Shown here: positions 23,900 through 41,265 of the stretch, one piece after another
Layout: every line of letters begins with the position of its first letter
How positions within the stretch are numbered: the stretch's first letter is position 1
Origin: Thraustochytrium sp. TN22
Taxonomy: Eukaryota > Sar > Bigyra > Thraustochytrida > Thraustochytriidae
Assembly (NCBI GenBank): GCA_013306675.1
Contig: JABLUY010000146.1
Span: 32,113-96,112 of the forward strand
DNA length: 64,000 nucleotides
Reading direction: 5' to 3'
Notes under the pieces: model-generated
Told to the model about the DNA's origin: nothing
Database searches by the model: none
Seen by the model: only the letters and a program-made list of their open reading frames with translations
Program-made: the position numbers and the translations under genes

Positions 23900-25537
23900 C
23901 TAGTGAAAGGAGCCACCCTGCTGGTAGCCGAGCTCCTTGGAGCGCAAAAGCGCCTGGTCGGCGCTCTCGACGTCGTCGAGGGCGGCAAAGACGCGCGCCA
24001 GGAGGTGCCACGCAGACGGGCTGTTCGGGTTGCGAAAGGTGCGCTCGCTGAGGTAGGCGCGTGCGAGCAGGAGCTGGCGGTCCGGGTCGGCGATGTTCTG
24101 CGCGAGCGGCTTGTCGGTATCGACGTCGATACGCGCGCTGCGCAGCAGGCTGTCGGCGTAGGTGGCCTCGATGAGCGCCACCTCACTGAGGCGGCCCGCG
24201 ATGAGCGGCCAGTCGGCGCGAGAGCGCGCGAGAAGGTGCGCAGCGCGCGCGTGGTCGGCCCGCGAGTGGAGCAGAAAGCCTTCGCACACGTCGCGCAGGC
24301 CGGTCGCGGGCGGCAGCGCCTCCACCATGGAGCTCGCGGCTGCGTCGTCACCGACGCCGAGCGCAACGATGAGGCGCTGCAGGTAGAGCAGGGGTTCGAG
24401 GCGCGGGTCGAGGTGTGGGTCGTCCGGGAGTGCCGCGGCGATCTTCTGGAAGCGGTCCGTGAGCGTGGGCGTGCGGCGGCGCGGGCCCTCGTCGTTGCCG
24501 GAGCGAAAGTACTTGCGCAGGTCGAAGGAGGGCTGGTCCTCGTCCAGCGCGGCGAACCAGCGGTCGGTGGCGCCGACCAGGCGCGCGCGCCACAGCAGCG
24601 AGGCGGCGAGCGGCCAGGAGGCGGGCCAGACCTGGTCCATGGAGAGCAGCGTGTCACAGTTCTGCACAGCCGGGCGCAGCTTGGCCGGCTCGATGGACGC
24701 GACGCCCTGCAGGTAGTAGAACTCCGCGGTGAGCGCCGAGGACGCCTTGAGGCCCTCTTCGTACACGTGCTCGAGCTCGCGCGCCAGCCGCACGCATTCG
24801 CGGAAGCGGTGCGAGGCGAGGAAACCGTGCGCCGTGCCGAGCGCCGCGACGCCACACATGGGCTCCAGCGAGAGGGCCTGGCCCGCGACGCGCTCCGCCT
24901 CGGCCATGAAGCCACACTCAAAGAGCGCGTCGGCGCGTAGGGCCAGCACGGCCGGGTAGCTGGGCAGCTCCGGCACCCAGGCCACGAGTGCGCGCTCCAC
25001 GCTGGCCAGCGCCTCGCGCGGCCGCCCGCGCCGCATGTGCGCGCCCTGCAGGCAGCGCAGCGCCAGCACGTGGTACGGGTTGTGCAGCAGGCGCTCCTCC
25101 CAGATGGCGCAGGCGCGTTCCGTCTCGCCCTCGTGCAGCGCCAGCGCCGAGTCCACCAGGCAGGCGGCGTCCTCCGAGACCGCGACGCTGGCCCCGCCGG
25201 CCTGCTGCCTGCGTTCCAGCAGCGCCGCCACGGCCGCCGCCAGCGCCTCCTTGGTGCTCACCGCCGGGCTGCGCTCGAAGACGGCGGCCAGCGCCCAGAG
25301 CGCCTCGGCCGACCCGCACTGCAGCGCCCCGCTGCTGGCCAGCTCCGCCGCCGCCTCGGCTGGCCGCCCGTAGCCGCACGCCAGCTGCGCCGCCGCCTCG
25401 CCGAAGGCGGCCACGCTCTGCGCCGCCGCCAAAACATCGCCGCCCGCCACCACGCGCACGCTGCTGTACGTGCAGACCGCCTCGCGCGCCTCCGCGCCTG
25501 CGCGCGAGCTCAGCCCGCGCCGCGCCGCGCGCCACAT
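23900..25537 (-). CDS. TPR protein, TTC38-like, probably mitochondrial
   Basis: 545 residues from the ATG at 25537. The N-terminus MWRAARRGLSSRAGAEAREA is Arg/Ser-rich with an RRGLSS processing-like site, pointing to mitochondria. The rest is tetratricopeptide-like helical hairpins. LVDSALALHEGETERACAIW, HNPYHVLALRCLQGAHMRRG and SYPAVLALRADALFECG are reminiscent of TTC38 proteins, which have long degenerate TPRs of unknown function. LSMDQVWPASW also resembles that family, but I cannot confirm orthology. No catalytic motif is seen. The leader upstream is an acidic-looking GAGGAC repeat tract. The gene heads the minus-strand run that continues with the SWEET array. Confidence 0.7.
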   Translation of the reverse strand: MWRAARRGLSSRAGAEAREAVCTYSSVRVVAGGDVLAAAQSVAAFGEAAAQLACGYGRPAEAAAELASSGALQCGSAEALWALAAVFERSPAVSTKEALAAAVAALLERRQQAGGASVAVSEDAACLVDSALALHEGETERACAIWEERLLHNPYHVLALRCLQGAHMRRGRPREALASVERALVAWVPELPSYPAVLALRADALFECGFMAEAERVAGQALSLEPMCGVAALGTAHGFLASHRFRECVRLARELEHVYEEGLKASSALTAEFYYLQGVASIEPAKLRPAVQNCDTLLSMDQVWPASWPLAASLLWRARLVGATDRWFAALDEDQPSFDLRKYFRSGNDEGPRRRTPTLTDRFQKIAAALPDDPHLDPRLEPLLYLQRLIVALGVGDDAAASSMVEALPPATGLRDVCEGFLLHSRADHARAAHLLARSRADWPLIAGRLSEVALIEATYADSLLRSARIDVDTDKPLAQNIADPDRQLLLARAYLSERTFRNPNSPSAWHLLARVFAALDDVESADQALLRSKELGYQQGGSFH

Positions 25538-25962
25538 CCTGCCCGCGCGCCCCTTGAACTTGTGTTTCAAGTTGAGGGTCTGGACTCTGGACGCGCGCGA
25601 CCACGAGAACGAGGACGAGGAGGACGAGGGAGAGGAGGAGGAGGAGGACGAGGACGAGGACGAAAATGACGACGACGACGAGGACGACGACCAAAAGGAG
25701 GAGGAGGATCGCAGGGTGGCGTGCAGGGGACGAAGAGGACCAGGCTTGGTGGCGATGGCGAGGTCGAGATTGATGGCGCCGAGGTTGAGGTTTTCCTCAG
25801 CTCTGGCCTTCGACTTCAACGCCTCGACGCTAGTCTTGACGCTCAGACCAAGACTGGAGTGTGCGATTGAAGAGCGGTTCACGCCGCCTTGGTAGCTACG
25901 GAAAGTTTTGTGAGTATACTGTTACACGCTCAACACGGTGGACAGACAACTTGGGGACCCGA
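25538..25962. other. Gap between TPR gene and SWEET array
   Basis: 425 bp. TCAAGTTG occurs at 25567-25574, next to CCTTGAACTTG, about 30 bp upstream of the TPR ATG. A GAGGACGAG-type repeat spans about 25605-25715. The remainder is ordinary. It serves as the TPR promoter and the 3' flank of the first transporter. Confidence 0.45.
25605..25715. repeat. GAGGACGAG-type purine-rich repeat
   Basis: About 110 bp of GAGGAC/GACGAC trinucleotide mixtures, giving one purine-rich and one pyrimidine-rich strand. It lies 70-180 bp upstream of the TPR start codon, in its presumed promoter. Confidence 0.7.
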
Positions 25963-26805
25963 TCAAACCAAGGCGACGCGGTCCGAGGTGTTGAGAGGCT
26001 CGACAAAGGAGAGCGGCGGGCGGTAAGAACCCTGATCGGCCTGCTGAACGAGCGGCGGAGGGGTGCCGGCGAGATCCCGGGCAGAAACGGCGTCGCCTGC
26101 GGTGACGGCAGCGGTGGTGGCTGCGGTGTCCTCCGTGACAACAGGTGTGGCATCGAGTGGAGCGCGCTCGCCGCGGCCATAGCGGAGCACGAAGCCAAGC
26201 TGCATGAGGCCAAACATGAGACCGACGAGGCTCTGCACGAGCGGCCAAAGATCGAAGTCAAAGTACAGGAAGATGCTCCACATGGAGTTGGAGATGATCT
26301 GCATGGTGAGGAAGCCGCGGTTGATGGAAGAGGCGTTGCGCGTGAGCATGATGACGCGCATGTTGCGCAGTGGCGAGGCGTAGGAAGCGCAGGTAGCCAG
26401 CAGGCTGTAGATGCCGACGGCCGAGGTGGCCTGCGCCCGGTTGAAGAGGCTCCAGACGACAAAGGCGGCGATGATGGAGAGCTGCATCAAGAAGATGATC
26501 TCCATGCGGCGGATGGCTTTGGAACGCGAGGATAGCTCGGCGACCGAGAGCAAGTAGAATGCGTTCATGATGACGCCGCCGATGGAGCCCAGCGTGTGGT
26601 AGTAGACGCCCGAAAGGCCGCCGTAGATGGACCAGAGGATGGCCTGTGGCATGGTCATGGCAAAGAGCACCGGGTCGAGGCTGCCGAGGTGGCCGCGCCT
26701 GCGTGCCTCTAGCACTGCGTACATGGGCCCCATGTGCAGGCCCTCTGTGCACACGAGGCCGAGGATGGGCGCCACGCGCGTCACGAAGAAGTCCGCGCTG
26801 CTCAT
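25963..26805 (-). CDS. SWEET/MtN3-type transporter, array copy 1
   Basis: 280 residues from the ATG at 26805 (CGCCATGAG). Seven hydrophobic helices fill residues 5-212 in the 3+1+3 arrangement of eukaryotic SWEETs: two MtN3 repeats around a linker helix. Recognisable elements are LGSLDPVLFAMTMPQAILW in repeat one and YASPLRNMRVIMLTRNASS followed by INRGFLTMQ in repeat two. SWEETs are facilitative sugar uniporters of plasma or internal membranes. The 68-residue tail ends GSYRPPLSFVEP...DRVALV, almost as in copy 2, so copies 1 and 2 form subgroup A. The usual pocket asparagines are replaced (see findings), so the substrate is uncertain. Confidence 0.85.
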   Translation of the reverse strand: MSSADFFVTRVAPILGLVCTEGLHMGPMYAVLEARRRGHLGSLDPVLFAMTMPQAILWSIYGGLSGVYYHTLGSIGGVIMNAFYLLSVAELSSRSKAIRRMEIIFLMQLSIIAAFVVWSLFNRAQATSAVGIYSLLATCASYASPLRNMRVIMLTRNASSINRGFLTMQIISNSMWSIFLYFDFDLWPLVQSLVGLMFGLMQLGFVLRYGRGERAPLDATPVVTEDTAATTAAVTAGDAVSARDLAGTPPPLVQQADQGSYRPPLSFVEPLNTSDRVALV

Positions 26806-27350
26806 GGCGGCTGTGCTGCGAGCGCGAGGGCGAGCGACCGTGCGAGCGACCGTGCGAGCGAGCAAGGAGGCAAGGCTGACAGGGCGTCTCAGCTTTGCGG
26901 GCGGGCGGCGTTGAACCCCAGCTCACCGCGCCGCGCCCCGCCCTCTTCTTGGGACGAGCTGCACTGGCCGCCGCAAGGTCGCAGCGGCGGCATCGGCCTG
27001 GGGCGCGCAGAACTCGCAGCCGCCGCCGGCGGCGGCGCGGCGCGGCGTGACCCTGGGACGGCCCAATTGCCCACAGTTCGTGGCTGCTACCTTGCTTGCC
27101 AGTGGACGCGCAACTTGAAGAAAAGTACTGGTGGGAGCCTTTTACCGTGGCCAGCGAAAACCAGCCTGAGTTCGCACTGTAAGCCAAGCTAGCTAGCTAG
27201 CTAGTAGAGCGACGCCTAACGTTAGCGGACCGCCACGCGCTCCTGCTTCGTCTCACTTGGTTGGTGTTTTGTCAGTTGCACCTGGCTGTTCTTTTTTTTT
27301 CCTTCGATGCCGGGCTGCTGCAGACTGCACTGTCCTGGTAAAGATCACGA
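26806..27350. promoter_or_regulatory. Promoter region of SWEET copy 1
   Basis: 545 bp. GAGCGACCGTGC repeats lie just upstream of the ATG. At 27098-27118, GCCAGTGG is followed six bases later by CAACTTGA, a pairing seen elsewhere in the window. CTAGCTAGCTAG is at about 27188-27203. No ORF. Confidence 0.4.
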
Positions 27351-28190
27351 TCACACGAGGGCCACGCGGTCCGTCGTCTGCATCGGCTCGACGTAGGAAA
27401 GCGGAGGGCGGTATGAGCCCTCCGAGGCAGCAACGACGGACGGCAGGCCGGAAAGGTCCTCGGCCGCAACGGCCTCGGCCTCAGCAGCAGCTGCTGCTGC
27501 TGCTGCGGAGGCGGCGGAGGGCGGCGCTGTATCCGAGGTGCGCATGCCGCGGCCATAGCGAAGCACAAAGGCGACCTGGAGGACGCCAAAGAAGACGCCG
27601 ATGACGCTCTGCACGAGCGGCCAAAGGTCAAAATCGAAGAAGAGGTAGACGCTCCACATGGTGTTGGAGAGGATGGACATGAAGAGGAAGCCGCGGTTAA
27701 TGGAGGAGGCGTCGCGCGTAAGCATGATGAGCCGCAGGTTGCGCAGCGGCGAGCCGTAGGACGCGCAGGACGCGACGAGGCTGTAGACGCCGACTGCCGT
27801 GGTGGCGCCGGCGCGGTCAAAGAGGCCCCAGACGACGAAGGCGCAGATGAGCGAGAGCTGCAGGAGCAGCACGGTCTCCATGCGGCGCACCGCCGGGCTG
27901 CGCGTGGACACTTCGGCGGCGGAGAGCAAGTAAAAGGCGCCGAGGACAATGCCGCCGACGGATCCCAGGACATAGTAAATGTTGCCGGTGAGGCCGCCGT
28001 AGAGCACCCAGAGGATGGCCTGCGGCGTGGTCATGGCGAAGAGCACCGGGTCGAGGCTACCCAGGCGGCCGCGCTTGCGCGCCTCCAGGACCGCGTACAT
28101 GGGCCCTAGGTGGAGGCCTGAGGTCACGATGACGCCAAGGACAGGCGCCACCTGCGTCGCGAAGACGCTGCTCACCTCACCCGTCGGCAT
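27351..28190 (-). CDS. SWEET/MtN3-type transporter, array copy 2
   Basis: 279 residues from the ATG at 28190. Seven membrane helices with the same landmarks as copy 1: LGSLDPVLFAMTTPQAILW, YGSPLRNLRLIMLTRDASS, then INRGFLFM and DFDLWPLVQS. The tail contains an Ala/Glu run and ends GSYRPPLSYVEP...DRVALV. Copies 1 and 2 are the most similar adjacent pair by eye, over both membrane core and tail, so they probably arose by one tandem duplication. The end motif, kept while the tail middle diverged, may be a sorting or partner-binding signal. Confidence 0.85.
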   Translation of the reverse strand: MPTGEVSSVFATQVAPVLGVIVTSGLHLGPMYAVLEARKRGRLGSLDPVLFAMTTPQAILWVLYGGLTGNIYYVLGSVGGIVLGAFYLLSAAEVSTRSPAVRRMETVLLLQLSLICAFVVWGLFDRAGATTAVGVYSLVASCASYGSPLRNLRLIMLTRDASSINRGFLFMSILSNTMWSVYLFFDFDLWPLVQSVIGVFFGVLQVAFVLRYGRGMRTSDTAPPSAASAAAAAAAAEAEAVAAEDLSGLPSVVAASEGSYRPPLSYVEPMQTTDRVALV

Positions 28191-28951
28191 GGCTGCTGCC
28201 GTGCGTGGGTGCCGGCCGCGCCGCTACTTGGTCGGCCGTCGAAGGGCGCCAGGGTTTTGGTCTGCCCACCACTGCAGCAACGTGAAGGCGTGGCAGCCGC
28301 TGCCTGCCAGGCGACGCACGGCCCGATCGGTCCATCACAGCAGCGCCTGCGCCTGCACCGGCCGCGGCAGTTTGGCCGCCGCGCGCGCGCTGCTGCATTA
28401 TGAGAAGAGTACGCCCCGCAGCTCGTGCTCGCGAACCCGGAGGTGAACAACTCCTGGGCCCCGCTCAAGTGCGACTGCGTGCGCTCCCGGGGCGGGCCTA
28501 GCCTTAGTAGTTGAGTCCGAGTCAGGGCGGTTCGGCCGGCTCGGCGCGGCTCGGCGGCTCGGGGGCCAGTCGAAGGTTCTGCGCACGCTGCGAACCGCAT
28601 GCAGGCGCAGGCTGAAGGCAGACTGCCCGCCGGTTCTTTGAAGCTGCAAACATGGGCGGAACTTGAGGCCGTCGCGCGCGCGCTGCCCGGTCGCCGTCTG
28701 GCTGTGAGGAAAGCAGCTCGTGTGCGGCTTGCAACAGGTAGCTGGCCGCGTGCAGGGTTCTGTTCTTGCGTGTAATACGGTTGACGCTGCAAGCATGGGC
28801 AAAGAGGCGCGTGAGTTACAACAAGGTTGAGCTCCCGGGCCGGCGGCGTCGGGACGGCGTCGGCCGACAGGCCCTGGCGTCAGCCTGCCGGAGCGTCTGT
28901 ATTCTGTGTCGAGCTGCAAAATCTTTCAGGGGCGTCGTTACTTGGTCTTTG
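28191..28951. promoter_or_regulatory. Gap between SWEET copies 2 and 3
   Basis: 761 bp serving as promoter for copy 2 and 3' flank of copy 3. GAGTCCGAGTC is at about 28514, and GGCTCGGCGCGGCTCGG pentamer-like units follow. No supported ORF. Confidence 0.4.
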
Positions 28952-29851
28952 TCATACCTGCGTGACCACGACATGGTCGAGGCGGTGCTCGACCAGCCCG
29001 AGCGGCTGCGGCGGCGGCTGCATGGGGTCAAAGATGGCCTGCTCGACGGTGCTGTTGTGGTTCGCAGCTTCGTCCCGAAGGCGCAGCGCGCCAGCACCCG
29101 CGTGAGCGGCGCCCGAGGCGAGCGGGCGGGTCTCGTTGAGGTGCAGACAGCCGCGCATGGAGTTCACGAAGGATGCTGCACGGCCGCGGCCCTCTAGAGA
29201 GCCGTGCGAAGGCTTGTAGTAGACGATGACGAGGCCGAGCTGCACGAGGCCGAAGGCGAGCCCGAGCAGTGCCGGCACGAGCACGTACGGGTCAAAGTCG
29301 AAGATGGAATAGACCGACCACATGACACCCGAGAGCAGCTGCATGAAGAGAAATCCAAGGTTGATGGACGAGGCGTCGCGCTCCCAGCAAATCTTGCGCA
29401 GGTTCAAAAAAGGCGTCGCGTAGAGTACGACGGACGCCACCAGGCTGTAGAGGCCGGCGGCCGTGACGCCGGCCTCGCGTTGGATGTAGCTGATGACGAT
29501 GATGATGCAAATGACCACAAGCTGCACGAGCAGCACGCGCTCAATCTTTCGCGCAGTCACCACGCATGTGTTGAGCCGAGTGACGGTGAGCAGGTAGAAG
29601 GTCCCAATGATGATGCCGCCCAGCGAGCCCAGCACGTAATACATGTTGCCTGCAAGACCACCGTAGACGCACCACTGGATAGCCTGCGGCATGGCCATGG
29701 CGAAGAGCATGGGGTCCAGGGCGCCCAGCGCGCCCGCCTTGCGAGCCTGCAGCACCGCGGCCATGGGCCCCAGGTACAGCAGCTCCGTCAAAAGGGCGCC
29801 CAGGACGGGCGCCACTTGCTTTACAAAGACATCTCCGCCCGGCGTCGCCAT
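28952..29851 (-). CDS. SWEET/MtN3-type transporter, array copy 3
   Basis: 299 residues from the ATG at 29851. Helices at about 9-32, 47-63, 69-90, 103-122, 128-149, 163-185 and 191-212, then an 87-residue cytosolic tail. Landmarks: LYLGPMAAVLQARKAGALG, AMPQAIQWCVYG, ATPFLNLRKICWERDASSI and MQLLSGVMWSVYS. It shares LQARKAGALGA and the RLNTC element after helix 3 with copies 4 and 5 (subgroup B). It is the only copy with Leu in SSINLGF, where others have Arg, and with Ala rather than Ser after the helix-7 proline (VPALLG). The tail has no counterpart in copies 4 and 5. Confidence 0.85.
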   Translation of the reverse strand: MATPGGDVFVKQVAPVLGALLTELLYLGPMAAVLQARKAGALGALDPMLFAMAMPQAIQWCVYGGLAGNMYYVLGSLGGIIIGTFYLLTVTRLNTCVVTARKIERVLLVQLVVICIIIVISYIQREAGVTAAGLYSLVASVVLYATPFLNLRKICWERDASSINLGFLFMQLLSGVMWSVYSIFDFDPYVLVPALLGLAFGLVQLGLVIVYYKPSHGSLEGRGRAASFVNSMRGCLHLNETRPLASGAAHAGAGALRLRDEAANHNSTVEQAIFDPMQPPPQPLGLVEHRLDHVVVTQV

Positions 29852-30770
29852 GCAGCAAACCTGACTTTCGCGGGGAGACCACGCTCGCCTCTTGCCTCAG
29901 CTCGGCTCGGCTCGGCTCGGCTCGGCTCGTATCGATTGCAATCTGCTCTCCACTCCCGACGCCGCGGCCGTGTCGCGCATCTGGGTCACGGTCACGCGAA
30001 CGTTGCTTGGCTGATGAAGTTGTGGTCGAGCGGACGTCTCGACGAGTCACTGCACCACCTGACAGGCTAGGCGGCGTCGGGCTCCCATCCGAGAGGCCAT
30101 GTTTCTCTGTCTCACTCTTCCACGAGGTTGGCCAGGCCAGCGGATCGCACTGCAAGCTTATCAAGTCCTTGAGGCGCGGCGAGCGGCGAGCGGCGAGCCG
30201 CGGCCAGAACTCCCAGCGCTCTGGATCGCGGCGACCCCCGGCGCCTCGAACCTGCACAGCGCCGTCGGCGCGTCGTCGGCCCCTGCGCCGAGAGCCCTGC
30301 CCAGCAGCCCAGCGTGAGTCACATCACGTCCACGGCTGGCGCGGAGGCGGCCTCGGAGGCCGGCCGACCAAGGCGAGGCGCGAGGCAGAGCTTGGCCGGC
30401 GAGCGTGATCGCGCAGTCAGACTTCGTTCACTGTCAAGGCGCGCCGCGCGCTGCTCGCCGCTGCCGGGCCGCTCGCGAGCTCGGCGATCATCTCGGAACT
30501 TGGTGCTGGCCAGCCGTACGCCGCTCTGGGCGTCCGTACGACCCTCGTTCTACCGAAGGCAAGGCTGCTCGGCGCCGACCCGTGCAAGGGGCGGCAAAAA
30601 GCGAGGTTAGCCACTGCAGTGCCGGAGCGTGCGTGCGCGCTTATCATGATGACAACACGATACCAGCCACAAAGAAATCTTCTTTCTTTGATTGATTGAT
30701 CAATGGTCAGGACATTTCAGGCTCGTAGGCCTAGTTCTCTTGGATTTCTTCCTCATCGCCATGCTCAGGC
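29852..30770. promoter_or_regulatory. Gap between SWEET copies 3 and 4
   Basis: 919 bp. Five perfect CTCGG pentamers (29901-29925) lie 50 bp upstream of the copy 3 ATG. A 23-nt sequence GACCCGTGCAAGGGG followed by CGGCAAAA (30577-30599) recurs near copy 5. No supported ORF. Confidence 0.45.
30577..30599. repeat. 23-nt dispersed repeat, 3' flank of SWEET copy 4
   Basis: Matches 32700-32722 at 22 of 23 positions. Both lie 120-175 bp beyond the stop of a subgroup B transporter, so the duplication that made copies 4 and 5 included the 3' flank. Confidence 0.7.
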
Positions 30771-31697
30771 TCATTGCAGCGCAATCTCGATGCTGGGCGA
30801 GGGCAAGATGGCCGGGAAAGCCTCCTCGGCGTGGCGGGCGCTGACGGGCACGTTGTGCGCGGCAGGCACGGAGTAGACGGGCAGGTCGATGGAGGGGAGG
30901 CTCGGGATCGGCAGGTCGACCGAGGGCAGGCTCGGGAGCGTGAGGTCGATGGAGGGCAGGCTCGGGAGCGGGTCCGTCTTGCCGCGACGGAAGAGACAGC
31001 TCCGCAGCGTGTCCAGCGGGTCCTTGCCCGGGTTGCCGTGCAGGTCGTGCTGCTGCGGCTTCCAGTAGACGAGCACGAGACCGAGCTGCACGACACCAAA
31101 GAGAAAACCGGTGAGGCTGGGCAGCATGAGGTAAAGGTCGAAGACGACGATGGCGTAGCAGGTCCACACGATGCCCGAGACGAGCTGCATGAAGAGGAAG
31201 CCGCGGTTGATGGAAGAGGCGTCGCGCTCCTTGCAGATCTTGCGCAGGTTGTGAAAGGGCGTGGCATAGAGCACCATGGACGTGATGAGGCTGTTCAAGC
31301 CGGCGGCCGTGACGCCAGCGTGCAGGTCGATGAAGCTGATGACGATGATGATGCAGATGAGGATGAGCTGCGCGAGCAGCACGAGCTCCACCTTGCGCGC
31401 CGTGCGCTCGCACGTGTTGAGCCGCGTCACCGTGAGCAGGTAGAAGGTGCCGATGATGATGCCGCCCAGCGAGCCCAGCACATAGTAGGTGTTGCCGGCC
31501 AGGGCACCGTAGACCGTCCACTGGATGGCCTGTGGCATGACCATGGCGAAGAGCAAGGGGTCCACTGCGCCCAGAGCACCGGCCTTGCGTGCCTGCAGCA
31601 CAGCCGTCATGGGGCCCAGGTACAGGAGCTCCGTGATGATGGCACCCAGCACGGGCGACACCTGCGTCATGAAGACATCGCGCGAGCTTGTGGACAT
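30771..31697 (-). CDS. SWEET/MtN3-type transporter, array copy 4, repeat-extended tail
   Basis: 308 residues from the ATG at 31697 (GACCATGTCC); the frame is open further upstream, but that stretch looks unlike protein. Seven helices as in copy 3, with ITELLYLGPMTAVLQARKAG, VMPQAIQWTVYG, YATPFHNLRKICKERDASS and MQLVSGIVWTCYA. The tail carries three 10-residue repeats of the form (L/I)PSLPS(I/V)DL(T/P) (nt about 30875-30965), absent from copy 5. It ends NVPVSARHAEEAFPAI then SPSIEIALQ, an end shared with copy 5. Subgroup B. Confidence 0.87.
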   Translation of the reverse strand: MSTSSRDVFMTQVSPVLGAIITELLYLGPMTAVLQARKAGALGAVDPLLFAMVMPQAIQWTVYGALAGNTYYVLGSLGGIIIGTFYLLTVTRLNTCERTARKVELVLLAQLILICIIIVISFIDLHAGVTAAGLNSLITSMVLYATPFHNLRKICKERDASSINRGFLFMQLVSGIVWTCYAIVVFDLYLMLPSLTGFLFGVVQLGLVLVYWKPQQHDLHGNPGKDPLDTLRSCLFRRGKTDPLPSLPSIDLTLPSLPSVDLPIPSLPSIDLPVYSVPAAHNVPVSARHAEEAFPAILPSPSIEIALQ

Positions 31698-32842
31698 GGT
31701 CAAACGCGAGGAGAGACTTGCCGAAGGCGGGAAGAGGTTGCGGGTCTGACTGCCTGCGGCGGCAGAATGATGCGCTCCTGCGAGTGAGGGGCTGCATGCG
31801 GCGGCATGGCATGATCCAAGCGAGGGGGGCCAACCTGCGCTCGAGAATCGCCGTCCCCGAAGTTGTTCAAGGCATGCACGCCGCGTGCTCCCGCGGGAGC
31901 CAAGATCGGCTCTGTTGCTCCAGAGGCGAGTGACAACTCTCACTCCTCCCTTGCTAAGCGCTTGCTAAGAGCTAGCTACTAGCTCGCAGGCGCCTCCAGT
32001 CAGCTTTCCTCCTGGCGCGGGCTGCCGTGCTGGCTATCACCTCGCGTCGCCACAAGGCTTCCCAGGCAGTACGCCAGCCCGCAAGGGCAGCCACTAGTGA
32101 GGACTGGCTCGCCGAAATGGGAGTCAAGCGGCCTACTACCGCTCGGCGCTCGGGGCGCGCGGCGCGCGCGATTGCGGCGCGCGCGGGGAGCGTGGTGGCG
32201 AGCGGCGTCGACCTTTGCTCCTGACCGTACTACTAGTACTACGGCGCGCAGCCGGTGCCGACGGCGATTCTGTGGCAGGCAGGCCGATGCTTGCGCAGGC
32301 AAGCTGTCAAGTCAAGTCACGCCTCTCCGCGAGCTCTCGCGCCGATCAGCCAGCCGTCGTCCACGATCGCAAGCAAGCCAATGACCGAGGCGCGCCCCAC
32401 TACGCTCGTCAAGGTCGGCCCGACCTGTGAGGTTGCGAGTCCTGCGAGCAACCAGAGTCCATCATCGAGTCGGCGCCCGGTTGCCAGGCCAGTGCGTGGC
32501 TGACGGCGGCTGACGCCTGCTCGCGAGGTGCGGGCCAACTGTGCAAGTTGGCGCTGGCCAGGTGGCTGGCAGGCTGCTCAGCTCGTGGGTCCGTGGCACG
32601 TGGCACGGCTGCTCGGAGCGAGTTGTCTCATCGGCAGCCAGAGTCGCCTCGTTCGCCCAGGGGCGCTTCACAGCGGACCCATGCAAGGGACGTGCCAGTG
32701 ACCCGTGCAAGGGACGGCAAAATCCTGGAGCTGTTCGGAGTCAAGTTGAGGCTGCCCGTGGTGGGCAACGATGATGGCCATCATTTGTTCAAATAGAGTA
32801 CCTTACCTTAGCTCGGTAGGCCAGTCATCCTTTGAGTCACAG
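31698..32842. promoter_or_regulatory. Gap between SWEET copies 4 and 5
   Basis: 1.15 kb. It contains CTAGCTACTAGCTC-like words (about 31970-31985), TGCCAGTG (about 32693), the second 23-nt repeat copy (32700-32722) and TCAAGTTG (32741-32748). No supported ORF. Confidence 0.45.
32700..32722. repeat. 23-nt dispersed repeat, 3' flank of SWEET copy 5
   Basis: Partner of 30577-30599, with a single G/A difference. It lies 121 bp beyond the copy 5 stop. A shorter relative, CCCATGCAAGGGACG, lies 20 bp before it. Confidence 0.7.
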
Positions 32843-33712
32843 TCAGTGCAAGGCAATCTCGATGCTGGGCGTGGGCGCGATGGCGGGAAAGGTCTCTTCG
32901 GCGTGGCGGGCGCTGACGGGCACGTTGTGCGCCGTGGGCACCGTGTAGGTGGGCAGGCTGATGGAGGACGACGTGACTGGGGTTGGGATGGTGTTGGCGC
33001 GGCGGCACAAGCAGGCGTGCAGCGCGTGCAGCGGGTCCCGGCCCGGGTTGCCGTGCAGGTCGTCCTGCTGCGGCTTCCAGTAGACGAGCACGAGGCCGAG
33101 CTGCATGAGGCCGAAAACGAGGCTGGTGAGGCTGGGCAGCAAGACGAAGAGGTCGACATCGACGATGGCGTAGCAACTCCACATGACGCCCGAGACGAGC
33201 TGCATGAAGAGGAAGCCGCGGTTGATGGAGGAGGCGTCGCGCTCCTTGCAGATCTTGCGCAGGTTGTGGAAAGGCGTCGCGTAAAGCACCATGGACGCAA
33301 TGAGGCTGTACAGCCCGGCTGCCGTGACGCCGGCTTCGAGCTCGACGTAGCTGATGATGATGATGATGCAGATGAGGACGAGCTGCGCGAGCAGCACGAG
33401 CTCCAGCTTGCGCGCTGTGCGGGCGCATGTGTTGAGCCGCGCCACCGTGAGCAGGTAAAAGGTGCCAATGACGATGCCGCCCAGGGAGCCTAGGACGTAG
33501 TACATGTTGCCAGCGAGGCCGCCATAGACGCACCACTGGATGGCCTGCGACATGGCCGTGGCGAAGAGCATCGGGTCCAAGGCACCCAAGGCTCCGGCCT
33601 TGCGAGCCTGCAGGACCGCAGCCATGGGCCCCAGGTACAGCAGCTCCGTCACGATGACGCCCAGCACGGGCGCTACCTGAGTCATGAAGACTCGGCGAGA
33701 CTCCGTCGACAT
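32843..33712 (-). CDS. SWEET/MtN3-type transporter, array copy 5
   Basis: 289 residues from the ATG at 33712 (CAACCATGTCG). Seven helices: VTELLYLGPMAAVLQARKAG, AMSQAIQWCVYG (Ser where all other copies have Pro before Gln), YATPFHNLRKICKERDASS, MQLVSGVMWSCYA. Closest to copy 4 by eye. The tails share NVPVSARHAEE and PSIEIAL at the end, but this one lacks the decapeptide repeats. The end NVPVSARHAEE is conserved although the preceding tail is not, so it may be functional. Subgroup B. Confidence 0.87.
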   Translation of the reverse strand: MSTESRRVFMTQVAPVLGVIVTELLYLGPMAAVLQARKAGALGALDPMLFATAMSQAIQWCVYGGLAGNMYYVLGSLGGIVIGTFYLLTVARLNTCARTARKLELVLLAQLVLICIIIIISYVELEAGVTAAGLYSLIASMVLYATPFHNLRKICKERDASSINRGFLFMQLVSGVMWSCYAIVDVDLFVLLPSLTSLVFGLMQLGLVLVYWKPQQDDLHGNPGRDPLHALHACLCRRANTIPTPVTSSSISLPTYTVPTAHNVPVSARHAEETFPAIAPTPSIEIALH

Positions 33713-35226
33713 GGTTGCGGTCCTTGCGATGCGTCAGCCCTCGTTTCGTGTCGCGACTTGATTCTGGTCTGCGGTCGCCTGCGCAAGCACATCTCAAGCG
33801 AGGAGACACGCGACACGCGCAAGAAAGAACCGCCGAGCCGACCTGGCCTGCGAGCGCATCCACAGCGAGGAGACACGCTACACGCGCAAGAAAGAACCGC
33901 CGAGCCGACCCGAGCCGACCCGGTTTTCCTATCATGACAGGTTCAAGGGGGGCCTCGATTCGCCTGCTGGCACTGCAGGCCAGGCTGCGCGCTGCAGTGG
34001 TCAAAGAACGCGCAGGACCTGCTGGTCTGGCCTGGTCTGGTCTGGTCTGGCCTGGTGCGCCCCAGGTTGCGATCTATCTCAAGGCAACCAAGAGGCTCAG
34101 CTTGTCGAAGGCCGAGCAGGCGGAGGTCGACCCGCGATAACGTTAGTGCACGTGCGTACCGTGCCGTTCGCGCGCGCAGAGATGTTCTGCGCTCCGCTGC
34201 TCGGCCGCGCTGCTCGGCCGCGGCGGCGGTACTCGTAACTCGTCCAAAGGCTTCCAAGCGAAAGAAGGCGAGCGACCGCGAGCGGTGACGGACGTCCCGT
34301 GGAAGGTTGGACGGCGCAGAGGTTGAACAAGGAGTCGCGCGCGAGACCGCCGGTGCACTCTTGTCAAGCTGAGCCTGCGAGCGCAGCTAGAGCGAGCGCT
34401 AGCAAGCACGCTAGCGGCTCCAGAGCTTAGTCTACGTAGCTACTAGGCCTAAGTAGCTAGCTAGTAGCATGACACGCTGGTGAGGCACCGGCGATGGCGA
34501 TCGACACAACAGGCACGCCGCCACGCGGCGCCACGCAGCCACGGTCCGTGCGTGGAATGCATTGCAGCATGTTGATGGACCAGAGTCAAGGCGTTTCCGT
34601 GGCAGAGACCTCGCCGGAGCAGTTTTGTCGGCTCCTGACGCGAGGTCGCGAGCCGAGGCTCGTTCCAGCACCGCGCCAGGCTGCCAGCCCTTTGGAAAAC
34701 GCCTCGCCTCGCCCGCCCGCTCGCGGGTTCCTTTGTCGCGTGACTCGGTTTTGCAACGAGGGACAGTCGCAGGCCGGGACCAGGCTTGTCGCCGACTCGC
34801 CGCCGCGTGGCCGCCGTCGCGGGCGGCGCGCGGGCTGGCCCGGGCGGGCAGACTGGGGCAGTCGCCGCAACTGCCGACCGGACGCGACGCCACTGCACGC
34901 CACAAACTCGCACGCCACCGCGGTCGCGGCGCCACGCGCGCAGCACAGCGGCGCCGGTGCACGTGCCGGCGTGGGCCCACGATTACATTGAGGTCGCATG
35001 CGACTACGCACGGTACGCAGCCTGCCAGTGGCAGTGAGTGACTGACGGTCACTTCGTGCAGTCGGGCCGGCGCCGATGGCCGGGCAGTGCAGTGCAGCCA
35101 CATCAATCAAGCATAGCATTCAATGTCACGGGTTGTCAGCGCTTACAATTCTTTCGATACATCATTGACATGACATGCGAATGCATTCAATTGTCACGGT
35201 GGTCAGATTTGGTGGTCAAATAGGCT
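33713..35226. promoter_or_regulatory. Gap between SWEET copies 5 and 6
   Basis: 1.5 kb. A 47-bp direct repeat lies 85-200 bp upstream of copy 5. A TCTGG/CCTGG pentamer run is at 34023-34056. CTAGC-rich DNA is at 34420-34470 and TGCCAGTGGCAGTGAGTGAC at about 35025. Several ORFs of 60-220 codons cross it on both strands, but none resembles a protein family. Confidence 0.45.
33797..33910. repeat. 47-bp direct repeat upstream of SWEET copy 5
   Basis: Copies at 33797-33843 and 33864-33910, beginning AGCGAGGAGACACGC, with one mismatch and a 20-bp spacer. It lies 85-200 bp before the start codon, where promoter duplication could change expression. Confidence 0.85.
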
Positions 35227-36369
35227 TCAGACCTGCGCGAGGTCAAGGTCCGCGGCGCGGAAGGAGTGAGAGGACTCAAGCAGCGGCTCCTGCTGGCCTA
35301 CCGCGGCAGCAGGCGACGCGAGGTCCTCGGGGCCGACCGGTACAACGGTGGACTCGAGGGAAACGGAGACGCGGCGCTCGAGCTGCGGGAGGAGCTGGTC
35401 CTCCGGTTGCTGCTGCCGCTGCTCGAGGTCGAGCTGAGGCTCCACCAGCGCGACGGTAGGCGCTACTAGAGGGAGGATGGCAGCTGCGTTCTCCGCCAGG
35501 ACACCAGGACCCGGCGTCGTTACGTTGGCCGAGGCGACGGGGTCGATCGTGAGGCAAAGGGCGGCGGCAGCGGAGGCGGCGTGGTCCTGGTCGGTCTCCT
35601 GCGGCGAGGGCTCAAAGGGCGCCGACTCCTGGCGCGAGAGGCGCTGGCACGCGGGCGGCTGATAGGCGGAAGACTTGAGCACCGGCACGTCAGAGACCTC
35701 GGTCGTGACCGTCGGCTCGTCAGAACGCGCGGGTCGGCTACGGAAGACGAGCAGCAAAACGATCTGCGTGGTGGCGAAGAGCAGGCTGACGAGGCTCGGG
35801 ATGAGCACGTAAATGTCAAAGTCAAAGGCCGAGTAGATGGACCAGAGCATGGCGCAGAGCAGCTGCATGCTGAGGAAGCCGCGGTTGATGGAGGAGACGT
35901 CGCGCGAAGCGATCATGCGACGCATGTTGACGAGCGGCGTCCCGTAGAGCGCGAGCGAGGAGAGCATGCTGTAGAGACCGGCGGCCTCAACGGCCGCCTG
36001 GCCGGCGAAGAGGCTCGCCACGACGAGCGCACCGGTGATGGCGAACTGTGTGAGCGTGATGCGCTCCATGCGAGTGGCCTCGGCGTCGCTGGCGGTGAGG
36101 CGCACGCTGGTGGTGAGGTAAAAAAGGCCGACGGCGATGCCGCCCACGGAGCCGAGAACGAGATAGGGCGAGCCGACCATTGCTCCGTAGACGGTCCACT
36201 GCAGCGCTTGCGGCGCGGTGACGGCGAGGAGCGTCGGGTTGAGGCTGCCCATGGTGCGCTTGCGGCGGGCCTCCAGCACGGCCGCCATGGGGCCAAGGTA
36301 CAGCAGCTCGGTGGTCATGACGCCCAGCACGGGCGCCACCTTGTAGACGAAGACGTCCTGCGCTGACAT
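35227..36369 (-). CDS. SWEET/MtN3-type transporter, array copy 6, long tail
   Basis: 380 residues from the ATG at 36369, which is preceded directly by eight adenines, an unusual leader here. The core has seven helices: TTELLYLGPMAAVLEARRKR, TAPQALQWTVYG, YGTPLVNMRRMIASRDVSS, MQLLCAMLWSIYS. Subgroup C (copies 6 and 7) is marked by LEARRKR, PQALQW and M-RRMI. The tail of about 165 residues is the longest with copy 7's, rich in Pro, Val, Ala and Gln, and contains LTIDPVASANVT, echoed as ATIDPTTTATS in copy 7. Such tails are cytosolic in SWEETs and carry phosphorylation or trafficking signals. Confidence 0.85.
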   Translation of the reverse strand: MSAQDVFVYKVAPVLGVMTTELLYLGPMAAVLEARRKRTMGSLNPTLLAVTAPQALQWTVYGAMVGSPYLVLGSVGGIAVGLFYLTTSVRLTASDAEATRMERITLTQFAITGALVVASLFAGQAAVEAAGLYSMLSSLALYGTPLVNMRRMIASRDVSSINRGFLSMQLLCAMLWSIYSAFDFDIYVLIPSLVSLLFATTQIVLLLVFRSRPARSDEPTVTTEVSDVPVLKSSAYQPPACQRLSRQESAPFEPSPQETDQDHAASAAAALCLTIDPVASANVTTPGPGVLAENAAAILPLVAPTVALVEPQLDLEQRQQQPEDQLLPQLERRVSVSLESTVVPVGPEDLASPAAAVGQQEPLLESSHSFRAADLDLAQV

Positions 36370-37722
36370 TTTTTTTTCCTATATGGTCTCTAGCTTCGTC
36401 CGCGCGTCGGAGCGTTCCGGATGGTTGTGGTTTTGCTTGCCCGGTTGCTTGGAGCGAGCTTTGGTCGTCGGGGGCTCGGGGCGCCGTGCTGCTGCGCAGT
36501 CTGCGCTCGAGCGCGGCGGCCAGCCAGGCAGTTAGCCAGCGCAGGCTGCCGCGCGCGCGGGGCGCCACATTGGAACTTGTTGTCCCCAGCGCACCACTCG
36601 TCGCGGTCTCGCAACTCGTTCATCTCGTCTGGACACGCCCGCGACGACGCCGCCCCCCGGACTGGACCAGAGTCGCGCTTACTTCGACTTCACAGCTGTG
36701 TGCAACTGCATCTTCCTCCGAGCTATCGGGCCCTTTGGTGGCGCGCCCGCGCGGCCCCGCGGGCGTCTGGGCTGGCCGCCTGCACGCGTCAAAATGCGCC
36801 CCTCTCCACCACCACCGCTGCGCGCGCAAGAGCACGACGGCTAGCGCAGCTAAGCGCACCCACACTGCAGCGCGGCACTCCTCGGGAGAGGTGCGGCTCG
36901 TCGGCGGCGGCGGCGTGACTCGGCGGCGGCGCAACGGCGCGCGCCGCCTGCCTTGACTCCTCACTCACAGCCAGAGTCAGGCTGTGCACCACCACGGATT
37001 GGCTGGACAGGACGATCTTTCCCTCGCCCGTCCGCGCGCGCACGGCACGAGACCCCCACAGCTCGAGCTCTAGCTTCTTCTCGCAAGTCAGGCTGCCCGG
37101 CAGCCCGTGTCCTTGTTCGAGCCAGGGCTGCCAAGCCGCCCGCTCTGCCGCCGCCGCCGCCGCCGTCGCGCGCAGCCGCAACGGTGCGCGAGCTGAGGGA
37201 GGGCCAGCCACCCAAACATTGACAAGAGGCCGTGGTGACCGATGGCAACGGGTGGCAGCCGCGCGTGGCTGCGCGTGGCGGCGCGTGAAGCTGTGTTTTG
37301 CTCTCAGGTCATGAGAGGCGGCATCGAAAACCGAGGACATCCGAGGTCCGAGGCCCGACGACGACTCGACGACGGGTAGGGCCGGCCTTTAAGTTGCCTC
37401 TACCAGCCAGGGAGGCCAAGGAGGCCAGCGATGCGCATCATGAATCTCTCATGACGGTTGGCCATCTCGGCCCCTTCGAATCGATGACGCCGCGGCGAGA
37501 TAGTCAGCGAATCAAGGTGGGTGATTTGTTTGGGGAATGCAAAGTGCGAGTCTCGAGTCTGGACTCGGCAGAGGACGCGTGCGCGGTAGGCGGCGGGCAA
37601 GGCGGCGTGTTGAATAGATGCCAAAAGGGATCGGGTGGGTTTGGTACTGGTACCCGGGTACCACCACCTTGGTAGTAGTGTACAATATTTCTTCACATGC
37701 GCGGTCTGGCCCCTCGGCCCGA
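36370..37722. promoter_or_regulatory. Gap between SWEET copies 6 and 7
   Basis: 1.35 kb without a supported gene. GGTACTGGTACCCGGGTACC (about 37639-37658) is an imperfect palindrome in the 3' flank of copy 7. A poly-T run (36370-36377) abuts the copy 6 ATG. Confidence 0.4.
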
Positions 37723-38772
37723 CTACGCGCGGCTCAAGATGAGGTCTTCGGCGGCCACAGGGTGCGGCAAGAGCACGTCGATTGGGATGACGGCTGCCGG
37801 GTCCTGGGGCGCCGGCAACATGACAGGCATGACTGGGATGGAAATCGTGTCGTTGCTGGAGGCGCTCGTTGGGCTGACGAGGTTCGTGCCCTCGTCGCCC
37901 GGCCGCGGCAGTACGTGCGACGAGAGCGGCGCGAGCGGCGGTTGTGCCTGGTGCTCAGCGAGGGCCGACGACCCCACCGAGGTTGCCGTGGTGGTGGGGT
38001 CGATGGTGGCAATGGCGCGCGAATCATCTTCGGTGTGCGAAAGCTGGCGCGGGGGGCGGTAGGCCTCTGGCTTGGCCCCGACCGGCAGGCAGACCGTCTC
38101 GGCCTCGTCCGGCAGCTCGGGCAGGCGGGGTGGCGGTGCGTTGGGAAAGCAGACGACGAGCAGCAACTGCGCCGAGCCGAAGAGCATGCTCATGAGGCTG
38201 GGCACGAGCACGTAGACGTTAAAGTCGAAGATGGAGTAGAGTGCCCAGAAGACGGCGCCGATAAGCTGCATGCCCAAGAAGCCGCGGTTGATGGAGGAGG
38301 AGTCCTTGGCTTCGATCATGCGGCGGAGGTTGATGAGCGGCGTCCCGTAGAGCGCGAGCGAGACGAGCATGCTATACATGCCGGCAGCTTCGATGGCCGG
38401 CTTTCCCGCGAAGAGGCCGGCGATAGCCAGCGTGCAGGTGATGGTGAACTGGATGAGCACGATGCGCTCCATGCGCGCTACCTCGGAATCGTTCGTGGAG
38501 AGTCGCACGCAGGTGAAGAGGTAGAAGATGCCGACGCCGATCCCGCCCACCGACGCGAGCACCAGGTACGGGTCGCCCACCATGCCTCCGTAGATGGTCC
38601 ACTGCAGTGCCTGCGGCATGGACATGGCGAAGAGCATCGGGTTGAGGTTGCCGAGCGAACGCTTCCGGCGCGCCTCCAGGACGGCCGGCAGCGGCCCGAG
38701 GTACAGCATCTCCATGAGGATGACGCCCAACACAGGCGCCACCTTGAGCACGAAGATGTCCTCTGGGTCCAT
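37723..38772 (-). CDS. SWEET/MtN3-type transporter, array copy 7
   Basis: 349 residues from the ATG at 38772; the open frame upstream only translates GAGC repeats. Seven helices: LMEMLYLGPLPAVLEARRKR, SMPQALQWTIYG, YGTPLINLRRMIEAKDSSS, MQLIGAVFWALYS. It is the only copy with LASVGG instead of LGS-GG in helix 3. The tail of about 140 residues is acidic and Pro/Ala-rich, with TIDPTTTATS and a C-terminal DPAAVIPIDVLLPHPVAAED. Subgroup C with copy 6. It ends the array; the next gene upstream is a methyltransferase. Confidence 0.86.
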   Translation of the reverse strand: MDPEDIFVLKVAPVLGVILMEMLYLGPLPAVLEARRKRSLGNLNPMLFAMSMPQALQWTIYGGMVGDPYLVLASVGGIGVGIFYLFTCVRLSTNDSEVARMERIVLIQFTITCTLAIAGLFAGKPAIEAAGMYSMLVSLALYGTPLINLRRMIEAKDSSSINRGFLGMQLIGAVFWALYSIFDFNVYVLVPSLMSMLFGSAQLLLVVCFPNAPPPRLPELPDEAETVCLPVGAKPEAYRPPRQLSHTEDDSRAIATIDPTTTATSVGSSALAEHQAQPPLAPLSSHVLPRPGDEGTNLVSPTSASSNDTISIPVMPVMLPAPQDPAAVIPIDVLLPHPVAAEDLILSRA

Positions 38773-40167: not shown

Positions 40168-41082
40168 CTACTGTTGTAGCTGCAAGGCCTCGAGCTCGAG
40201 CTCGAGCTCAGGGCGCGTGAAGGCGGGCAGCACGGCCTGGACGCGGGCGAAGAGCGGGCTGGGCTCGGCGCCGGGCTTGCAAAAGACAATCAGCTTGACG
40301 CGCTTGACATCGACAAAGGCCTTGGGGCCGAGGTTGCGGCCGCGCTCGATCATTTCGGGGCGGAAAATGTGTGTGACAGCGAGGATGCCGAGATCGTCGA
40401 GCTTCGAGATGAAGTCGTCAGTGTTACAACGGCAGGGGTCGGAGAGGATGCCGACGGCGCCGGGGCGGAGCGCGCGCGCGAAGAGCTTGGCGACGGGCGC
40501 GACGGTGCCGCGGTAAAAGAGGACGTCGGAGCCGATGACGAGGTCGAAGGCGTCCTGCGGGATGGAAGCCTCGTCGTTCCAGTCAAGCTTGGCGAAGGAG
40601 AGGTTGTCAAGGTCGTTGGCCTTGGCGCTCTGCGCGCAGATGCGCAGCGCGTCCTCCACGAGGTCGGTCATGCGCACGGAGGCGGCGCCGCCGAGGCCGG
40701 CCGTGAGGCTGCAGAGGCCGGAGCCGCCGCCGATCTCGAGCACGTCGACACCGCCCAGGTCAACGGCGTCAATGAAGCTGGCGGTGAGCAGCGAGGTGCC
40801 CCAGACGAACTCCCAGAGGTCGCACTGCTTCTTTTGCTGCGACCACACGCCCGCCTTGGGGTCCTCCAGGTGCACGAGTTGCACAAGTCTGCCGCCCTCC
40901 TCCTCCTCCGCGGCCCCGGCCCCGGCGGCAACTTCTTCGTCCTCGTGCAGCTGGCCGTGGCGCTCATCGATGTCGCCGTCGTCGTCGTCGCCGCCGCCGC
41001 CGCCCCGGGCGAGGAGGCCTGGCAGAGGGCGCGCCAGGCGCACGGCCGACTGCTGCAGGCTGGGCAGGTCGGCGTCCGCCAT
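40168..41082 (-). CDS. METTL21/METTL18-like protein lysine methyltransferase
   Basis: 304 residues from the ATG at 41082. After an acidic Gly/Asp/Glu-rich N-terminus (about 25-70), the seven-beta-strand methyltransferase fold of the Methyltransf_16 family follows. It has an LWEFVWGTSLLTASFI entry helix, SAM-binding motif I VDVLEIGGGSGLCSL, acidic loop RMTDLVEDAL, a LDWNDE element, and DLVIGSDVLFY, whose D-x-x-Y/F-type ending is typical of non-histone protein lysine methyltransferases. Targets in this family include chaperones, ribosomal proteins and eEF1A; which applies here cannot be read. The C-terminus ELELELEALQLQQ is a short helical extension. Divergent from UPRT across 183 bp. Confidence 0.8.
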   Translation of the reverse strand: MADADLPSLQQSAVRLARPLPGLLARGGGGGDDDDGDIDERHGQLHEDEEVAAGAGAAEEEEGGRLVQLVHLEDPKAGVWSQQKKQCDLWEFVWGTSLLTASFIDAVDLGGVDVLEIGGGSGLCSLTAGLGGAASVRMTDLVEDALRICAQSAKANDLDNLSFAKLDWNDEASIPQDAFDLVIGSDVLFYRGTVAPVAKLFARALRPGAVGILSDPCRCNTDDFISKLDDLGILAVTHIFRPEMIERGRNLGPKAFVDVKRVKLIVFCKPGAEPSPLFARVQAVLPAFTRPELELELEALQLQQ

Positions 41083-41265
41083 GGCGCCGCGCGCGACGAG
41101 CGGGTCCCACCGTGTTGCGCCGCGCGGCCCCACGCCTCCGCGCGGTTTGCTTCGGTTTGGTGCACGCGGCGAGCTTCGTCGTGGCGGTCGCCATGGCGGC
41201 GCAGCGGGTGCCGCCGGCGGAGCAGCAGAATTCCAAGGTCGAGGGCAGCGCAGCGCGGCGCGAAG
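41083..41265. promoter_or_regulatory. Compact bidirectional promoter, methyltransferase / UPRT
   Basis: 183 bp between divergent ATGs. GC-rich without a TATA box. Both 5' leaders must start here, so co-expression is plausible. Confidence 0.55.

Follow-up and report, generated by a model that had tools for sequence, protein, structure and literature searches.

A tandem array of seven SWEET-like genes without the canonical pocket asparagines in Thraustochytrium sp. TN22

Seven intact, intronless genes of the MtN3_slv (SWEET) family stand head to tail on the minus strand of a contig of Thraustochytrium sp. TN22. All seven encoded proteins have kept both pocket tryptophans but lost the two pocket asparagines on which sugar transport by AtSWEET1 depends. 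The array is probably a lineage-specific SWEET subfamily, whose founder lost both sugar-coordinating Asn residues and was then multiplied by local duplication, with the copies being kept intact. SWEETs belong to the smallest carriers, and the way in which their pocket selects a cargo is under active study.

Organization of the array

The array occupies positions 25963-38772 of the window, which is the whole 64-kb stretch of DNA analysed, and each gene runs from ATG to stop. The genes of the array and the flanking open reading frames (ORFs) are the following:

g1, 25963..26805, minus strand: SWEET-like, 280 aa; Ser at both former Asn sites, Gln replacing AtSWEET1 P191; end of the tail SYRPPLSFVEPLNTSDRVALV
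g2, 27351..28190, minus strand: SWEET-like, 279 aa; 71% identical to its sister g1 over the core; Ser in TM1 where the other six have Glu
g3, 28952..29851, minus strand: SWEET-like, 299 aa; TM3 Asn replaced by Ser, TM7 Asn by Ala
g4, 30771..31697, minus strand: SWEET-like, 308 aa; 81% identical to its sister g5 over the core
g5, 32843..33712, minus strand: SWEET-like, 289 aa
g6, 35227..36369, minus strand: SWEET-like, 380 aa; long C-terminal tail; 64% identical to its sister g7 over the core
g7, 37723..38772, minus strand: SWEET-like, 349 aa; long tail; furthest upstream array gene on its strand
TauD/TfdA-type dioxygenase ORF, 22444..23661, plus strand: PF02668, E 1.3e-37; left flank, outside the array
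TPR-protein ORF, 23900..25882, minus strand: TPR_2, E 9e-5, under the curated cut-off; left flank adjoining g1, outside the array
UPRTase-domain ORF, 40369..42108, plus strand: PF14681, E 1e-55; right flank, outside the array
Methyltransferase ORF, 40168-42135, on the strand opposite the UPRTase-domain ORF and overlapping it: PF10294, E 6.5e-11

The gaps between the array genes measure 545, 761, 919, 1145, 1514, and 1353 bp. An earlier note on this DNA had described seven complete SWEET/MtN3-type genes in tandem on one strand, and the interval it gave begins exactly with the stop codon of g1 and ends with the ATG of g7. Its statement that no other gene lies between the copies also holds: none of 24 ORFs with a length of 100 aa or more from the gaps or gap edges, a set that left out a few ORFs located for the most part within array genes in a different frame, matched Pfam at E 0.01, and no pseudocopy was found by protein search. 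A comparison of the seven proteins with positions 20001-45000, in which the array was masked, gave no remnants (single match at E 0.67), and no remnants were detected by protein search elsewhere in the window.

Family membership and genomic context

The MtN3_slv profile PF03083, which the earlier note had proposed as a check, was passed by all seven proteins with 33-67 bits against a curated cut-off of 23.7, g1 being scored without its first Met. A search of the genome with this profile, in which 18 of 18 candidates were scored, yielded 16 matches, comprising 12 in the seven array genes and two in each of two further genes, here called C36 and C97 after their contigs. Since seven of at least nine family members in the genome are adjacent, their arrangement is not due to chance. 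The protein g5 finds AtSWEET13 (5xpd) with E 1.9e-6. The claimed seven-helix architecture is plausible by prediction: the helices in an AlphaFold2 model of the g7 core (218 aa; alignment of 7 rows; pLDDT 83, pTM 0.79) are consistent with seven TM segments, and those predicted for g5 fit likewise. As regards a putative 3-1-3 layout, TM4 and TM5 run together in the predicted secondary structure of g7. Profile scans of viral contig and genome contig sets with the array alignment revealed no relatives, nor did scans of the viral contigs with C97 or with C36 plus plant SWEETs.

The host is a protist, as the earlier note had assumed. Elsewhere in the genome, contig C124 carries a 3044-aa open frame for a PfaA-type PUFA synthase (2540 bits over its pieces), beside which a 2083-aa open frame with related matches lies in opposite orientation; this layout we take to be that of a thraustochytrid PUFA synthase. 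The light-harvesting family PF00504 had no match in the genome, which together with the PfaA finding is in line with a thraustochytrid. The expansion, which had been called striking for a protist, is notable rather than unprecedented, since 26 SWEET homologues are reported in PMC5742349 for the oomycete Phytophthora parasitica, where SWEETs have likewise undergone a lineage-specific multiplication in a stramenopile.

Divergence and constraint among the copies

The core regions of the copies differ by 15-41% of bases, which rules out a collapsed or repeated assembly, and by 19-57% of residues, because of which dosage alone, one of two benefits suggested in the earlier note, fits poorly. The tree topology (g1,g2), (g3,(g4,g5)), (g6,g7) matches the gene order. 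In an 11-row tree, a branch supported at 96/97 sets the array rows apart, C97 stands next to them, and C36, a long branch of unsure placement, groups with the plant SWEETs. For the close pairs g1-g2, g3-g4, g3-g5, g4-g5, and g6-g7, dN/dS values of 0.22-0.41, rough because dS is probably near saturation at this GC3, bear out that the intact reading frames were retained by selection; values of 0.55-1.01 for distant array pairs are uninformative. The C-terminal tail is the most variable part of the proteins, with the core being more constrained, and a YRPP or YQPP motif is common to g1, g2, g6, g7, and C97. Altogether, the array resembles a single old clade: its founder would have lost the canonical sugar ligands and then been multiplied, with constraint preserving the copies.

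Loss of the pocket asparagines

In a gap-free alignment over 205 residues with C97, which has Asn at both sites, the TM3 Asn (AtSWEET1 N73) is replaced by Ser in all seven array proteins and the TM7 Asn (AtSWEET1 N192) by Ser in six and by Ala in g3. The pocket Asn is thus kept at none of 14 sites (Ser 13, Ala 1). The profile alignment agrees where the array proteins were aligned, which applies to TM3 in five (g2, g3, g4, g5, g7) and to TM7 in six of seven (g2-g7); a MAFFT alignment with plant rows was gapped beside the TM3 Asn, and this site was read from the gap-free and profile alignments instead. The TM3 Ser is invariant while its codon drifts (TCC in four copies, TCG in three), and the TM7 Ser is encoded by AGC in 6/6 cases.

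In contrast, Asn is found at 4/4 sites of C36 and C97 in the profile alignment and at 4/4 sites of two plant SWEETs. Bacterial SemiSWEETs have the pocket Asn in 42/42 loci and 38/38 distinct sequences, although these controls lean towards Asn because they are best-scoring profile matches and one search pattern itself contained Asn. With just two plant and two own-genome SWEETs as eukaryotic controls, the Ser pair may be more widespread than this comparison suggests.

According to published work, transport by AtSWEET1 is abolished in N73A, N192A, and W176 mutants (PMC5742349), sucrose uptake by the E. coli SemiSWEET is lowered by N66A (PMC4309421), and algal Clusters 1-3 as well as fungal Cluster 5 show conservation of the Trp-Asn pairs, which are termed crucial (PMC9520054). 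Fungal Cluster 4 is not named there among the clusters keeping the pairs; as NcSWEET1 of this cluster is a hexose and pentose carrier, sugar carriers with a changed Trp-Asn pair may exist. The published Asn mutants are mostly exchanges for Ala; Ser retains a hydroxyl and might still hold sugar. Among the matches listed from open-licence PMC literature, there was neither a thraustochytrid SWEET study nor a SWEET clade without both Asn. Sugar transport, assumed in the earlier note with other small solutes as an alternative, is unsupported as stated for seven proteins without the Asn pair required in AtSWEET1.

Other residues of pocket, gate, and hinge

Both pocket sites carry Trp in 7/7 array proteins (W60 and W178 in g5 numbering), and the outer-gate Tyr, the hinge prolines of TM1 and TM5, and the Gln of TM7 are likewise invariant. 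The kept Trp proves little, since the first site is occupied by Ser in AtSWEET1 and by Cys in OsSWEET2b, and W50A raised sucrose uptake by the E. coli SemiSWEET (PMC4309421). The inner-gate proline tetrad (AtSWEET1 P23, P43, P145, P162) is half kept: P23 and P145 are present in 7/7, and P43 in TM2 is replaced by Leu and P162 in TM6 by Asn in 7/7. Gln stands at the site matching position 54 of AtSWEET13 in all seven proteins and Thr at that matching position 20 in six, and these changed positions could compensate for the loss of Asn. A Glu in TM1 adjoins a pocket position in 6/7, with Ser in g2. The sole pair with a distinct pocket is g1 and g2 (Ser at AtSWEET13-145, Gln for AtSWEET1 P191). No cargo was deduced from what differs at AtSWEET13 positions 54, 145, and 176, since the crystallised protein has engineered residues there (PMC9520054).

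Across nine pocket-lining columns, mean pairwise identity among the copies is 0.825 compared to a core average of 0.559, a level reached by 0.55% of 20,000 randomly drawn sets of columns; once the two Trp and two former Asn columns are left out, it is 0.743, an excess that is not significant (11% of sets). Substrate diversification among the copies, the other benefit suggested earlier, therefore finds little support.

Comparison with known systems

Plant SWEETs (AtSWEET1, AtSWEET13, OsSWEET2b; PF03083) resemble the array in the seven TM segments (predicted for the array), the TM1 and TM5 Pro, the outer-gate Tyr, and the TM7 Gln; Trp at both pocket sites is shared by AtSWEET13, and the second site of OsSWEET2b has Phe. 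Both Asn replaced, Leu and Asn for the TM2 and TM6 Pro, and the TM1 Glu in 6/7 set the array apart. Bacterial SemiSWEETs share the three-helix unit, of which the array proteins are two fused copies, the Trp (36 of 38 distinct sequences), and the absence of Pro at the TM2/TM6-equivalent site (38/38), but differ in their pocket Asn. The closest relative found is C97 (708 aa; 30-37% identity over the gap-free alignment), which is also without the TM2/TM6 Pro; unlike the array, it is a single-copy gene, has kept both Asn, has Tyr at the first Trp site, and extends into a tail of ~490 aa.

Proposed origin and alternative explanations

An ancestral gene related to the single-copy C97 SWEET would have lost the TM3 and TM7 Asn before duplication. 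Repeated local duplication, presumably by unequal crossing-over, would then have led to the seven-gene array, with order and tree supporting a tandem origin. The array proteins most likely still act as alternating-access facilitators moving a small solute down its gradient, since the predicted seven-helix layout, both Trp, the outer-gate Tyr, and the TM1/TM5 prolines are kept. In the putative binding site, two Trp-Ser pairs (Trp-Ala once) replace two Trp-Asn pairs, so that sugar coordination would have to differ from that of known SWEETs. As all seven copies have lost two sugar-holding residues, their handling of sugars may be altered, or their cargo may be something else; judged from the pocket residues, altered coordination or cargo is likely, and a non-sugar cargo, such as a different polar solute, is possible. 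The divergent tails suggest that differences among the copies may concern cargo less than regulation or location. A more specific version is tentative: a SWEET-fold clade might have moved off sugars, with the founder's change from Trp-Asn to Trp-Ser, together with the TM1 Glu, giving a facilitator for another solute (amino-acid-like, polyol, or osmolyte) ahead of the seven tandem copies.

The array proteins could instead be ordinary SWEET sugar facilitators, in which hexoses are bound sufficiently well by the Ser hydroxyls together with the TM2 Gln and both Trp, and the array serves dosage or stage-specific expression in an osmotroph. Conservation of the Trp sites, of the outer-gate Tyr, and of the TM1/TM5 Pro is consistent with this. 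Nor is a carrier necessarily disabled by losing the TM2/TM6 Pro, since C97 is without both and SemiSWEETs have Ser (37) or Ala (1) there. Furthermore, sugar uptake probably matters to this organism, because Sugar_tr (PF00083) gave 9 matches in at least eight open frames of its genome, with 8 of 41 candidates having been scored. However, N73A, N192A, P43A, and P162A each abolish AtSWEET1 activity (PMC5742349) and the array is without all four residues, both Asn are gone in 7/7 but present in all distinct SemiSWEETs and four control SWEETs, and the copies are too divergent for plain dosage, which leaves ordinary sugar transport rather doubtful.

It is unlikely that the proteins are non-transporting SWEET relatives, i.e. 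sensors, scaffolds, or oligomer partners of C36/C97 with the variable tails as working part. The loss of substrate ligands in all copies, the variable tails, and the YRPP/YQPP motif shared with C97 would agree with such a role, but the core is more constrained than the tails, and invariance of the Trp pair, outer-gate Tyr, and TM7 Gln is less expected without translocation. That one or two genes were mis-joined into an array is hardly credible, given a DNA identity over the core of 85% for the closest pair and 59-81% for the others, a window without any N, and spacers that are mutually unrelated except in two pairs, which share four short matches (23-45 bases).

Implications

A natural clade that has the family profile and both Trp but both Asn swapped constitutes a ready experiment on the role of the Asn pair, for which the two Asn-bearing SWEETs of the same genome serve as built-in controls. 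If the array proteins are ordinary sugar carriers, the rule requiring the Asn pair falls. Thraustochytrids are grown on sugars for DHA oil, and knowing the solutes of the seven carriers would be of practical interest for such cultures.

Gene content of the tandem array

The minus strand carries seven intact genes, all arranged head to tail and termed g1 to g7. The encoded proteins exceeded the cut-off of the MtN3_slv profile in 7/7 cases in a Pfam search, which bears out the earlier note's description of a tandem array of MtN3/SWEET-type genes.

Genes of the array and flanking features (window coordinates)
25963-26805, minus strand: g1, MtN3_slv match
27351-28190, minus strand: g2, MtN3_slv match
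28952-29851, minus strand: g3, MtN3_slv match
30771-31697, minus strand: g4, MtN3_slv match
32843-33712, minus strand: g5, MtN3_slv match
35227-36369, minus strand: g6, MtN3_slv match
37723-38772, minus strand: g7, MtN3_slv match
Left flank of the array: TPR ORF and TauD-type dioxygenase ORF (Pfam search)
Right flank of the array: methyltransferase ORF (Pfam search)
40369-42108, right flank of the array: long ORF with a C-terminal UPRTase domain; this ORF overlaps the methyltransferase ORF on the opposite strand

The intergenic gaps measure 545-1514 bp. The suggestion that no other gene lies between the copies agrees with the lack of a Pfam family in all 24 searched ORFs (100 aa or longer) from the gaps or their edges; pseudocopies of array genes were not found in the gaps. 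Immediately upstream of g5, a 61-nt direct repeat is present in two copies (33783-33910, 90% identical, spacing 67). Long open frames run antisense to array genes on the plus strand (37618-39081, 30774-31787 and 29204-30070) and are probably a by-product of high GC3; the last of them, the one of the three searched against Pfam, gave no match.

A search of the 37.9 Mb genome (453 contigs), in which intron-split genes could be missed, revealed two MtN3 genes outside the array, one each on contigs C36 and C97. The genome also encodes a PfaA-type PUFA synthase in one 3044-aa open frame (C124:26703-35603, minus), adjoined on the other strand by a 2083-aa open frame with related matches (C124:38227-41142, plus), and a search for light-harvesting proteins (PF00504) was negative, an arrangement which we take to be that of a thraustochytrid (Labyrinthulomycetes, stramenopile). 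A further 5691-aa open frame (C410:25857-39995), in which the PfaA profile has several partial matches, is perhaps another polyketide synthase.

Duplication and selective constraint

Over a gap-free core of 205 residues, the array members share 43-81% protein and 59-85% DNA identity. In a tree of 11 rows comprising the array, the SWEETs of C97 and C36 and two plant SWEETs, the array lies on one side of a single branch (support 96/97), with C97 next; C36 groups with the plant proteins on a flagged long branch, making its placement unsure. The groups inside the array, (g1,g2), (g3,(g4,g5)) and (g6,g7), with supports of 90/92 to 100/100, are chromosomal neighbours, the pattern that repeated local duplication would give.

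Five close pairs have dN/dS values of 0.22-0.41. These are probably overestimates, as a GC3 of 83-90% has probably brought synonymous sites close to saturation; values for distant pairs (0.55-1.01) are uninformative. All seven genes look long kept as proteins, in line with the previous proposal that selection has retained the copies.

The substrate pocket

Trp-Asn pairs have been credited with sugar binding in SWEETs and SemiSWEETs, the bacterial three-helix relatives (PMC9520054; PMC4309421). In AtSWEET1, transport is abolished by N73A (TM3), by N192A (TM7) and by W176 mutants, each alone (PMC5742349). All seven array proteins have Trp at both pocket Trp sites, Ser at the TM3 Asn site and, at the TM7 site, Ser in six cases and Ala in g3. 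The register is confirmed by profile alignment for TM3 in five and for TM7 in six of the genes; for g1 (both sites) and g6 (TM3) it comes from gap-free alignment to sister genes. The TM3 Ser codon is TCC in four genes and TCG in three; its third base has moved, but the residue has not.

In contrast to the array, AtSWEET13 and OsSWEET2b keep Asn at 4/4 sites, as do the genome's own C36 and C97. Three SemiSWEET searches yielded 42 loci (7, 6 and 29, the last with a match in 57 of 118 genomes), all of which aligned, giving 38 distinct sequences. Asn is present in 38/38 and Trp in 36/38, a count leaning towards Asn as loci were best-scoring matches and one search pattern held the Asn. The array proteins are SWEET family members by profile match, but their pocket does not pass as that of a SWEET sugar carrier.

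The kept Trp is no proof of sugar binding because the first Trp site is Ser in AtSWEET1 (PMC5742349), Cys in OsSWEET2b and Tyr in C97, and because W50A raised sucrose uptake by the E. coli SemiSWEET (PMC4309421). A further caution is that the published list of clusters keeping the Trp-Asn pairs comprises 1-3 and 5 and does not mention fungal Cluster 4, the cluster of NcSWEET1, which carries hexoses and pentoses (PMC9520054).

Gate residues, tails and predicted structure

Two prolines of the inner-gate tetrad survive: all seven proteins retain those of TM1 and TM5 and carry Leu in TM2 and Asn in TM6 in place of the others. P43A and P162A each abolish AtSWEET1 activity (PMC5742349). This loss is weaker evidence, since C97 also lacks both prolines and 38/38 SemiSWEETs have Ser or Ala there. 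A TM1 Glu is found in six proteins (Ser in g2), at a site occupied by Phe and Leu in the two plant proteins and by Phe in C97.

Similarity among the seven is 0.825 in nine pocket columns versus 0.559 in the core, with 0.55% of random core-column sets as high, but the excess is not significant without the Trp and former-Asn columns (11% of random sets). The pocket columns thus give no sign of the substrate diversification proposed earlier, with g1 and g2, set apart from the other five at two more sites, as a possible exception. The C-terminal tails span ~66 to 170 residues and are divergent, except that g1, g2, g6, g7 and C97 share a YRPP or YQPP motif, and g1 and g2 a common tail ending.

AlphaFold2, given an alignment of the seven window proteins alone, modelled the 218-aa core of g7 fairly well (pLDDT 83, pTM 0.79) and g5 in full length less well (pLDDT 64, pTM 0.54). 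In both models the core is helical throughout and its pattern is compatible with seven TM helices, with helix breaks at the retained TM1 and TM5 prolines in g7 and near the TM1 proline only in g5.

Predicted function

The retention of several residues of the gates and hinges suggests that the array proteins continue to transport a small solute through alternating access; a loss of transport appears improbable. Their cargo, or the manner of holding it, would have changed, since the two residues most directly holding the sugar are gone. In favour of ordinary sugar transport, Ser remains able to donate a hydrogen bond, but this alternative is rather unlikely given that the Asn pair is missing from all seven copies. 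Judged from sequence, altered sugar coordination or altered cargo is somewhat favoured; the boldest reading, a cargo that is not a sugar at all, is rather unlikely. Of the transport of sugars or other small solutes suggested before, the movement of a small solute is kept as a prediction; sugar transport is not supported as assumed, since all seven proteins lack both pocket asparagines.

Large SWEET families are already in print for oomycetes, with 26 members in Phytophthora parasitica (PMC5742349). Among the literature matches listed, none concerned thraustochytrid SWEETs or a SWEET clade lacking both Asn. Compared at the residue level with two plant SWEETs, the genome's two other SWEETs and SemiSWEETs, the array is a set of SWEET family proteins by profile with a predicted pocket devoid of the Asn pair.
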